DNA from: Planctomycetota bacterium
GTDB lineage: Bacteria > Planctomycetota > UBA1135 > GCA-002686595
DNA length: 64,000 nucleotides
Direction of reading: 5' to 3'
NCBI GenBank assembly: GCA_029259605.1
Contig: JAJDEV010000254.1
Coordinates: forward strand, 1-64,000
A program made the translations under genes and the position numbers. Below are positions 1-47,697 of the stretch, piece by piece. The number at the start of each line of letters is the position of its first letter. Position 1 is the first letter of the stretch. Below the pieces are notes generated by a model that did not search any database, was not told where the DNA came from, and saw only the letters and a list, made by a program, of their open reading frames with translations.

Positions 1-141
1 TCTCGGCCCCTGCCGGCACTTTGCGAACGTCGGCGTCCTCGACGACCTGACAAGGTCGCCTCCGGGGCCAACGCCCGCAAAGCACCGGCAGGAACCGAGT
101 TGCAGCTACTGCCGCACATCCTCATGAATGATCCGGGCTAG
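1..141 (-). repeat. Divergent copy of CTAG-bounded repeat family R1 (possibly cut by window edge)
   Basis: Read on the minus strand, this stretch starts with CTAGCCCGGATCATTCATGA (141 down to 122), the same terminus as the full R1 copies at 2614 and 26551. It also carries the R1 central hairpin, GGCGACC (60-54) and GGTCGTC (47-41) around a 6-base loop. The stem between terminus and core differs: bases 2-29 and about 73-99 form their own long imperfect inverted repeat. Terminus and apical hairpin are therefore conserved while the stem has changed. The left terminus is not visible and may lie outside the window. Confidence 0.6.
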
Positions 142-2613: not shown

Positions 2614-2796
2614 CTAGCCCGGGTTATTCATGAGGCTTTGCCGAGATCGACGTGGATGCGCGTCAGATCAGCGCTTCGCGACCGAAGCGCGTGGAGGCGA
2701 CCTTGACGGGTCGTCGAACCCGGTGAGGGAGGGAAGCGTTGATATGGCGCGTAGCTGCGTCGATCTCGGTGAAGTCTCATGAATCATCCGGGCTGG
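2614..2796 (+). repeat. R1 repeat, 183 bp, CTAG-bounded extended hairpin
   Basis: Begins CTAGCCCGGG and ends in the inverted form (CCGGGCTGG, final CTAG mutated to CTGG). The outer about 39 bases of each end are inverted repeats. Pairing continues inward through ATCAGCGCTTC and GAAGCGTTGAT to an apical hairpin GGCGACC (2696-2702), 6-base loop, GGTCGTC (2709-2715). A further local hairpin GCGCTTCG/CGAAGCGC lies at 2671-2690. It differs from the copy at 26551 at 12 of 183 positions. Most mismatches in the terminal arms are G opposite T on this strand, so a plus-strand transcript would still pair. There is no coding capacity. It sits between two plus-strand genes. Confidence 0.85.
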
Positions 2797-26388: not shown

Positions 26389-26554
26389 CTAGCAGTCCGT
26401 GGCGAAAGTGCTTCGCCCGCAGAGCGTCGGCATCCGCTCCGGGTTGGTCTCCGGAAACGTAGGCGAATCGGTGGATTCGGCGAGGCTTGCGGGGGCCAAG
26501 CCGGAGTGGAGGACGGCGTTCTGCGGGTGAATGACTTTTGCCACGGGCTGCTAG
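26389..26554 (+). repeat. R2 repeat, 166 bp, CTAG-bounded extended hairpin
   Basis: Starts CTAGCAGTCCGTGGCGAAAG and ends with the inverted form CTTTTGCCACGGGCTGCTAG. The arms pair over about 55 bases each, including CCCGCAG (26412-26418) with CTGCGGG (26521-26527) and CTCCGG with CCGGAG. Most mismatches are G or T on this strand opposite T or G, so a plus-strand RNA would pair through wobbles. The final CTAG (26551-26554) is also the first CTAG of the R1 repeat that follows. There is no coding capacity. Confidence 0.8.
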
Positions 26555-26733
26555 CCCGGATCATTCATGAGCCTTCACCGAGATCGACGCGGATGTGCGT
26601 CAGATCAGCGCTTCGCGACCGAAGCGCGTGGAGGCGACCTTGACGGGTCGTCGAACCCGGTGAGGAAGGGAAGCGTTGATATGGCGCGCAGCTGCGTCGA
26701 TCTCGGTGAAGCCTCATGAATGATCCGGGCTAG
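26551..26733 (+). repeat. R1 repeat, 183 bp, CTAG-bounded extended hairpin
   Basis: Near-perfect inverted termini: CTAGCCCGGATCATTCATGA at the left, its complement at the right, with about 39 paired bases and one mismatch. The inner stem and the apical GGCGACC-N6-GGTCGTC hairpin match the copy at 2614. CTAG occurs at both outer edges (26551, 26730), consistent with a 4-bp target duplication. The right CTAG provides the TAG stop of the minus-strand CNNM gene. Confidence 0.85.
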
Positions 26734-27770
26734 GTCGCGCTCGGAACCCGCGGCTCGGGGCTCGACCCGACGATGCCGCGCAGCATGAAGCCCAGGAGGT
26801 CGGCTCCGGTCACGACGCGTCGCTGCTCGTCGGTCCACAGGAGAATCAGGTCCTTGTCGATGACGTCGTCCCGCGGCGACTCGGGCTCGACGGACAGCTT
26901 GCGGAGGACCCTGCCCACGTGCACGTCGGCATCCGCGACGACGATCGGGCGGTGGCAGCAGCTGTAGGGATTGAAGGTCTCCGTTTGGAGAAAGAGCCCG
27001 CGCACGAACTCGTCGGCGTCGAGCACGAGGCGCGGCGTCTCGGACTCGTCGCAGAGGATGACCCACTTGTGCCCGGACCTCACGACGAGCTGGACGAACG
27101 GGTCCGTGGCCGACGCTTCGCAGGCGGGGATCACGGGCAGGTCCACCTGAACGGGGAGCGTGATCACGGACAAGGGATCGACGGGCTCGCCCTCACGGCC
27201 GAGCGGCAGATCGTCGAGCGCCAGGAAGTTCAGCGCGCCGAGCCCCTCGGTCTCCTTGAGGTCGGATTCCGCGGACTCCATGTGCTTCGTGATGACGCGT
27301 CGAAGGTCTCGCTCGCGGAGGTACGTGATGCCCTCGGGTCCCAGCCATCGATCGAGGAACCACGCCGACGGCCTCGCGACGATCCACAGCACCTTCTGAT
27401 AGAAGCCCAGAACGGGAGCGAGCGCAGCTCCCATCTTCAGCGCGTTGCGCGAGAACCAGGCCTGCGGAACGATCTCTCCGAAGAAGGTGATGCCGAACGT
27501 GGAGAACGCGAAGGCATAGGCGCCCGTCAAAATCGAGTCGGTGAGAAGCGTCAGCAGCACGTTGGCCGCGACGTTCCCCCACAGGATCGTCGTCAGCAGG
27601 AAGTTGGAGTCGTCCCGAAGCGCGATCACCTTCACGGCCGCGTCGTTGCCTCCCTCCGCCTCCACCTCGAGCTGCAGCCTTCCCAGGCCGAACAGCGCCA
27701 AGTTGAGGCCCGAGAACGTCGCGGAGTGCACGAGGCACGCGGCAATTCCGAGCCAGGTCAGTATCTCCAT
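26730..27770 (-). CDS. CNNM/CorC-type transporter with DUF21 domain
   Basis: 346 aa from ATG 27770. The N-terminal DUF21 transmembrane domain (about residues 1-190) shows the typical LNLALFGLGRLQLEVEAEGG, LLTTILWGNVAANVLLTLL and FFGEIVPQAWFSRNALKMG segments; helices and the Glu-Ile-Val-Pro motif match Mg2+/Co2+ exporters of the CNNM family. The C-terminal part has two weak CBS-like segments (DPFVQLVVRSGHKWVILCD; DLILLWTDEQRRVVTGADLLG). The usual CorC_HlyC acidic domain is absent. The TAG stop is created by the CTAG edge of repeat R1. Likely co-transcribed with yqeY and gyrA upstream. Confidence 0.83.
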   Translation of the reverse strand: MEILTWLGIAACLVHSATFSGLNLALFGLGRLQLEVEAEGGNDAAVKVIALRDDSNFLLTTILWGNVAANVLLTLLTDSILTGAYAFAFSTFGITFFGEIVPQAWFSRNALKMGAALAPVLGFYQKVLWIVARPSAWFLDRWLGPEGITYLRERDLRRVITKHMESAESDLKETEGLGALNFLALDDLPLGREGEPVDPLSVITLPVQVDLPVIPACEASATDPFVQLVVRSGHKWVILCDESETPRLVLDADEFVRGLFLQTETFNPYSCCHRPIVVADADVHVGRVLRKLSVEPESPRDDVIDKDLILLWTDEQRRVVTGADLLGFMLRGIVGSSPEPRVPSAT

Positions 27771-46712: not shown

Positions 46713-46844
46713 CTAGCAGGCTGTGGCGCGAGTGCTTCGCCCGCAGCCCGTCGACATCCGCTCCGGGTTGGTCTCCGGAAACGCAGGCGAATCGGTGGAA
46801 TCGGCGAGGAGCCGGAGTGGAGGACTCTTGCCACCGTCTGCTAG
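46713..46844 (+). repeat. R2 repeat, 132 bp, shortened
   Basis: Begins CTAGCAGGCTGTGGCGCGAG and ends GCCACCGTCTGCTAG. The left half (TGCTTCGCCCGCAG..CATCCGCTCCGGGTTGG, CTCCGGAAACG, GGCGAATCGGTGG) is nearly the same as in the 166-bp copy at 26389. The right arm has lost about 34 bases. The last CTAG (46841-46844) supplies the TAG stop of the minus-strand EF-hand gene. Confidence 0.78.
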
Positions 46845-47627: not shown

Positions 47628-47697
47628 CTTGCAGCCGGTGGTGAAACTCACGCCACCCTCGACCGGCGCGGGGGTGTTTTTCACCACGGGCTGCTAG
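47628..47697 (+). repeat. R2-like minimal repeat, 70 bp
   Basis: Left end CTTGCAGCCGGTGGTGAAAC, right end TTTTTCACCACGGGCTGCTAG minus its first base as inverse; the arms pair over about 22 bases. The middle of the larger copies is missing. The terminal CTAG (47694-47697) forms the TAG stop of the minus-strand M14 carboxypeptidase gene. Confidence 0.7.

Follow-up and report, generated by a model that had tools for sequence, protein, structure and literature searches.

R1, a MITE with IS1380-type ends in Planctomycetota, holds a one-strand fold that was likely selected during its spread

Starting from two full copies in a 64,000-nucleotide stretch of a Planctomycetota bacterium (assembly GCA_029259605.1, contig JAJDEV010000254.1, positions 1 to 64,000; hereafter the window), we found that the R1 repeat is very probably a MITE whose ends are those of IS1380-family transposons. 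Between these ends lies a core in which one defined strand holds a conserved, covarying fold, and it is likely that selection has acted on this folded single strand in propagating lineages. With slightly more belief than doubt, we propose the overall account of a MITE that is moved by IS1380, whose one-strand fold is selected during spread and whose fold is likely carried by RNA. R1 would be a non-autonomous transposon, on the ends of which an IS1380 transposase acts in trans; judging from the ends and duplications that we observed, it would insert into YTAR sites, mostly CTAG, with a duplication of four bases. The hairpin between the ends, a non-IS1380 sequence, would present the conserved covarying fold on one defined strand, and read-through transcription would produce an RNA that binds a factor of the host or of the element, which we consider to be the most likely carrier. 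The main alternative carrier would be a strand-specific hairpin of single-stranded DNA.

Bacterial MITEs are usually viewed as inert leftovers, the hairpins of which are a by-product of inverted ends. With hundreds of copies per genome and many genera, selection during spread can be separated from selection in place, and the data indicate that a one-strand fold matters for spreading. This makes it possible to test, as a general question, whether DNA transposons of bacteria make use of RNA or single-stranded DNA in folded form.

R1 copies in the window

Between the two full copies (Table 1) there are 12 differences over the 183 positions, as claimed in an earlier note made from the letters of the window, and both contain the apical hairpin GGCGACC-N6-GGTCGTC that it described. 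The G·U-biased mismatches that it pointed out in the copy at 2614 were found again: the outer 60 symmetric pairs comprise 10 G·T, no A·C and 3 other mismatches, and the same pairs of the copy at 26551 comprise 4 G·T, no A·C and 3 others. Compared with dinucleotide shuffles, the two copies fold with z-scores of −16 and −17, and the folding energy of the copy at 26551 is −142 kcal/mol on the plus strand (the motif strand) versus −116 kcal/mol on the minus strand. Two of its readings had to be revised. First, CTAG, taken as the bounds of the repeat, lies outside the element and is a target-site duplication. Second, the stretch at the very start of the window, taken as a divergent R1, is not decayed; it is the end of a copy of a second subfamily (202 bp), truncated at the contig start (the first base of the window is base 1 of contig C173), and it matches another genomic copy of that subfamily at 138 of 141 positions. 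The note had also missed the IS1380 identity of the inverted ends and the YTAR duplication.

Table 1. Positions of the R1 and R2 elements and of associated features in the window
Feature	Position	Strand	Remarks
R1 MITE copy	2614..2796	+	183 bp with both target tetramers
Target tetramers of copy 2614	2614..2617 and 2793..2796		left CTAG; right CTGG, a mutated CTAG
Left terminal inverted repeat, copy 2614	2618..2633	+	CCCGGGTTATTCATGA, IS1380-type end
Right terminal inverted repeat, copy 2614	2777..2792	-	plus strand reads TCATGAATCATCCGGG
Apical hairpin, copy 2614	2696..2715	+	GGCGACC-TTGACG-GGTCGTC, within the strand-specific core
R1 MITE copy	26551..26733	+	183 bp with CTAG duplications at 26551-26554 and 26730-26733
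Left terminal inverted repeat, copy 26551	26555..26570	+	CCCGGATCATTCATGA
Right terminal inverted repeat, copy 26551	26714..26729	-	
Apical hairpin, copy 26551	26633..26652	+	GGCGACC-TTGACG-GGTCGTC
Truncated R1 copy of the sister subfamily (202 bp)	1..141	-	motif strand is minus; cut by the contig start
CNNM-domain gene	26730..27731	-	TAG stop inside the right CTAG duplication of copy 26551
R2-family palindromic MITE	26389..26554	+	CTAG-CAGTCCGTGGCGAAAGT...ACTTTTGCCACGGGCTG-CTAG; one CTAG common with R1 copy 26551
R2-family site	46713..46844		
R2-family site	about 47632..47697		

Copy number, spread and length classes

The assembly of the own genome comprises 5.88 Mb in 305 contigs and is 91.5% complete. 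With at most two mismatches, the terminal 20-mer occurs at 523 genome sites, versus none for the reversed control, and we count about 260 R1 copies, a number made uncertain by the fact that R1 breaks the assembly, contigs ending in copies. Many contigs of the own genome start or end within an R1 copy, the start of the window among them. The R1 family was found in 22 of 61 related genomes, ranging from one site to hundreds per genome. We extracted 111 distinct copies from the own genome (collected from about 1.2 Mb of sequence) and from about 20 related genera. Copies with only 1-3 base differences between them occupy different sites, which bears indirectly on mobility. Across genera, the lengths of the elements without the duplication are mainly near 158, 175, 194, 212-220, 239 and 251 bp, and the 194-bp class has an additional side hairpin with a C-GNA-G loop.

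R1 termini and target duplications are of the IS1380 type

The element proper reads CCCGG[AG]TNATTCATGA...TCATGAATNA[TC]CCGGG; its termini are ends of IS1380-family transposons (CCCGGATNATTCATGA), and the repeat, 183 bp with its duplications, contains no transposase gene. Because the flanks match over four bases even where they are not CTAG, we regard CTAG as a 4-bp target duplication (YTAR): the matched flanking tetramers of the 111 copies were CTAG (81 copies), TTAG (5), CTAA (2), ATAG (1) and CCAG (1). Tandem neighbour copies have one CTAG in common.

The IS1380-family transposases of the own genome and its relatives were found by a DDE_Tnp_1_4 search, the assignment being confirmed with NCBIfam NF033539 (328-383 bits), and a scan of 84,980 genomes gathered 80 IS1380 loci. 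Those with recognisable ends mostly show CCCGG-type ends and YTAR duplications. One of them, L252, reads CTAG-CCCGGATTATTCATGA...-CTAG and has exactly the R1 ends, as does L256, which is identical on both sides. Ends of the CCCG[GC]ATTATTCATGA type were seen in L252, L256 and L257 and at the left end of L187 of genome G043. In G043 the left end of the IS1380, CCCGCATTATTCATGA, is identical to the ends of the MITEs of that genome, a comparison that covered the left IS end. As the R1 ends are IS1380 ends, an IS1380 transposase would move R1 in trans. The one intact IS1380 of the own genome (L186; ends CCCGGATCCCTCAC, CTAG duplication) has only the first half of its ends (CCCGGATC) in common with R1, in an assembly that is incomplete; the enzyme matching R1 may have been lost, may be absent from the assembly, or may tolerate differences between ends. 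In the examined loci, the IS1380 family (NF033539, PF13701) shares its terminal inverted repeats and its YTAR (CTAG) duplications with R1; unlike it, R1 has no transposase gene. Furthermore, the similarity between MITE and IS1380 stops at about base 16, and the R1 core was found in none of 71 loci of IS1380 or of the partner IS of a second repeat, R2.

Several other identities were considered and rejected. The GTAG-/CGTC-tagged REP sequences (PMC3733652) are repeated extragenic palindromes; many of them are transcribed, and Planctomycetes are among the bacteria from which they have been reported. REP/RAYT elements are palindromes of 20-40 bp with a one-ended tag and no duplication, whereas R1 has 175 bp, IS1380 ends and a 4-bp duplication on each side; nor does CTAG lie within such an element, the flanking tetramer being duplicated and varying in matched pairs. 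TA-duplicating MITEs (Correia, RUP, ERIC) were dismissed because the flanking C and G are duplicated too, and because TTAG, CTAA, ATAG and CCAG pairs agree at all four bases. As for other partners in the own genome, a PF13546 search for IS701-type enzymes gave none, and the two hits for the generic DDE_Tnp_1 (PF01609) are the IS1380 and an IS1182-like remnant. The GGTCACCAGG ends in genome G015, considered as those of another transposon family, actually read CTAG-CCCGGTTCGGTCACCA, an IS1380-type variant. The same genome carries R1 relatives (L433, L442 and L449) with the same core and altered IS1380-type ends, CCCGGTTCGGTCACCAGG.

Landing sites and neighbouring genes

In 56 of the 92 full own-genome copies, the TAG of the duplicated CTAG is the stop codon of the flanking gene, as predicted with a simple codon-usage caller written for this analysis, and no full copy lies inside a predicted gene. 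CTAG is rare: 197 sites occur in 642 kb outside the copies; 72 of them coincide with stop codons, and no more than 23 fall within genes. Compared with these background sites, R1 is enriched at stop codons (odds ratio 2.7, p = 1.3e-4). Since CTAG sites are rare and lie mostly at TAG stops and between genes, and since the duplicated CTAG retains the stop codon, insertions leave genes intact. This mode of landing also accounts for the presence of about 260 insertions in a genome that is compact. Copies positioned at stop codons are also likely to be transcribed by read-through.

The frequent use of TAG as a stop is what one would expect of a host cis-acting RNA, that is, a 3' untranslated hairpin that protects or regulates the mRNA at the occupied stop codon, like ERIC or Correia/NEMIS. 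We nevertheless judge this explanation quite improbable. The orientation of copies relative to genes, which the earlier note had expected, was not observed: 26 copies were sense and 35 antisense (p = 0.31), so that cis-regulation via gene orientation was rejected as unsupported, and the similar frequency of both orientations speaks against a role for the copies in the expression or function of adjacent genes. In addition, the private mutations of the copies (see below) do not favour G·U above A·C.

One strand holds a conserved, covarying fold

Each copy was paired with the reverse complement of itself, and G·T and A·C were given equal scores. In the own genome and in several relatives, this self-pairing revealed that one strand has far more G·T than A·C, and once the sequences were turned to their G·T-rich strand, the genera aligned in one orientation with a common apical motif. 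To avoid circularity, copies were then oriented by a sequence-only model. G·T exceeded A·C in 17 of 18 groups with one tie (sign test, p = 1.5e-5), in agreement with the strand bias announced in the earlier note, and the motif strand was the better fold in 18 of 18; G033 is without bias (1:1). The summed group means were 161 G·T versus 63 A·C, pair counts that are not independent inasmuch as same-genome copies share ancestry. The motif that recurs across genera on this strand consists of an internal CGCAG, a stem nCGANNC/GNNCGnC and then GAGGACG.

The covariation that the note had suggested looking for was significant. When the cores of 22 sequences were aligned, 21 of 35 pairs were compensatory versus 10.4 expected, and 94.9% of cells were paired versus 82.1% after shuffling; none of 500 column shuffles reached either value. 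Sliding the partner by 1-3 columns, as a control, brought pairing down to 34-48%. Some pairs exist in A-T, G-T and G-C states among the copies of one genome. Covariation by itself could arise if one arm of a DNA palindrome converts the other, an origin against which only the strand bias argues.

The related explanation, already disfavoured and in our opinion very improbable, is that R1 is a mere DNA palindrome, the arms of which are alike by palindromic birth or conversion, the G·T excess being due to chance or to strand-biased mutation. Some copies are indeed near-perfect palindromes with equal strand energies, such as L442 of G015 (183 bp), which is perhaps a newborn copy, and the mutations of resident copies are unbiased. 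Against this, the bias follows one orientation of the motif in nearly all groups, and the conserved apical motif is asymmetric rather than palindromic. Moreover, the G·T sites come from both A->G and C->T changes, with pairs traversing the A-T, G-T and G-C states, which does not fit a one-way deamination.

With Rfam 15, no family matched the window at the gathering threshold and no credible match appeared at a relaxed threshold; the exact core pattern had 0 matches in the IMG/VR viral contigs.

Selection probably acts on propagating lineages rather than on resident copies

From the following lines of evidence, we read the resident copies as decaying neutrally and the multiplying lineages as constrained. 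First, among 79 aligned own-genome copies, the variants present in a single copy comprise 12 changes from Watson-Crick to G·T and 12 from Watson-Crick to A·C, that is, no bias. Second, the consensus of the own copies contains 10 G·T and no A·C. Third, the variants shared by at least five copies are mainly exchanges between G·T and Watson-Crick pairs, the ratio of changes to G·T over changes to A·C being 4:1 in this class and 9:5 for variants found in 2-4 copies; as this contrast between shared variants is small, the weight lies on the 10:0 consensus and on the between-genus sign test. Private mutations thus ignore the fold, whereas ancestral and between-genus differences respect it, so that the fold would serve the multiplication of the lineage rather than the neighbour gene. 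Most likely, it is needed for a lineage to keep multiplying and not for the adjacent gene. The earlier suggestion of selection on RNA structure is therefore supported for a folded single strand, through the covariation and the G·U bias, in terms that apply alike to RNA and to single-stranded DNA; it fails as a function of resident copies for the neighbour gene, given the unbiased private mutations and orientations.

Constrained lineages with neutral residents, and the missing gene-orientation bias, would also be explained if one or a few master loci encoded a trans-acting small RNA for the host or the element, the other copies being dead offspring. We consider this improbable, because none of the loci stood out as a master by unique conservation and because hundreds of copies in some genomes, with none in many relatives, are unlike a useful host gene.

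Our preferred carrier, RNA, is contested mainly by single-stranded DNA, in the form of a strand-specific hairpin extruded or handled during replication or transposition. Integron attC sites and REP/RAYT hairpins are handled as such DNA hairpins, and the C-GNA-G triloop is exceptionally stable in DNA. In the 194-bp class, 12 of the 13 side-hairpin loops counted are C-GNA-G (CGAAG, CGTAG, CGCAG). In DNA too, G·T is the mildest mismatch, and the constraint on the fold concerns propagating lineages rather than residents. On the other hand, IS1380 enzymes are DDE transposases acting on double-stranded ends, and RNA also has GNA triloops. Taken as a whole, the single-stranded DNA explanation appears to us rather unlikely, and it is the most serious of the rivals. 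Judging from sequence, RNA is somewhat better placed than single-stranded DNA as the carrier; the preference is modest because the C-GNA-G triloops of the side hairpins would suit DNA.

Relation to known systems

RUP of Streptococcus pneumoniae is a MITE thought to be moved in trans by IS630-Spn1, and no signature of function other than its ends is reported (PMC2229807). Present in about 100 copies, it resembles R1 in its lack of coding capacity, its ends copied from an autonomous IS and its short target duplication; R1 differs by its IS1380 ends, its 4-bp YTAR duplication instead of TA, and its strand-specific covarying core. Correia/NEMIS elements of Neisseria, the folded transcripts of which act at the RNA level through RNase III (PMC2649163), are, like R1, palindromic MITEs with hundreds of copies, but R1 has other ends, lives in other bacteria, lacks a gene-orientation bias and has a core unrelated in sequence. 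MITEPye1 of Paracoccus yeei has IS1182 ends and a predicted long RNA stem-loop (PMC11578231). It is presumably moved by IS1182, and a remnant of this family bears R2 ends in the present genome (see below); unlike R1, MITEPye1 occurs in 1-3 chromosomal copies of one species, and its ends are those of IS1182, not of IS1380.

MITEs that form stem-loops and have effects at the RNA level are already known (PMC2649163, PMC10969869, PMC11578231), and there is a precedent for arguing in favour of RNA from compensatory changes that include G-U pairs (PMC2674063). We found no matching report on IS1380 MITEs or on the R1 sequence in the literature, and, within the searchable material, a conserved strand-specific covarying core that may pass from one transposon system to another seems to be without precedent.

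The R2 family and related cores beyond IS1380 ends

Members of the R2 family measure 157-158 bp or are shorter through deletion; they have a CTAG duplication and CAGNCCGTGGTGAAA ends. The apical motif of the R2 copy adjoining R1 in the window is GTAGGCGAATC-GGTG-GATTCGGCGAGG, and the apex of one R2 subfamily reads CGTAGGCGAATC..GATTCGGCGAGG. Like R1, R2 shows a one-strand bias (210 G·T versus 77 A·C; 29 of 32 copies). A frameshifted IS1182-like transposase (L111, 857-2252) is bordered on both sides by R2 ends and CTAG, and this IS1182-like element probably once moved the R2 family. A structure model of R1 detects R2-family copies with E-values of about 1e-3 to 3e-5, and the motif common to both is also recognised as a pattern; the sequence-only model detected no R2-family copies, and the relation between the two cores is only suggestive.

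In G392, a planctomycete of another family, a TA-flanked MITE (L453-L457) with GAGCGTRTTATGCACTTTT ends bears the R1 apical motif; these elements carry CGCAGGCGATGC..GCATCGTCGAGTACG, and the sequence-only model scores them weakly (E = 0.02). These likenesses outside IS1380 ends are short and were partly spotted by eye. We put forward only as a tentative possibility that a structured module, probably RNA, parasitises several unrelated DNA transposon systems, swapping IS1380, IS1182-like and TA-duplicating ends. Such a module would keep its own fold and apical motif, and only the lineages that keep the fold would continue to multiply. It could be likened to eukaryotic SINE RNAs, the multiplication of which depends on their fold. 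A similar apical motif with unrelated ends was also seen in G043 (L400).
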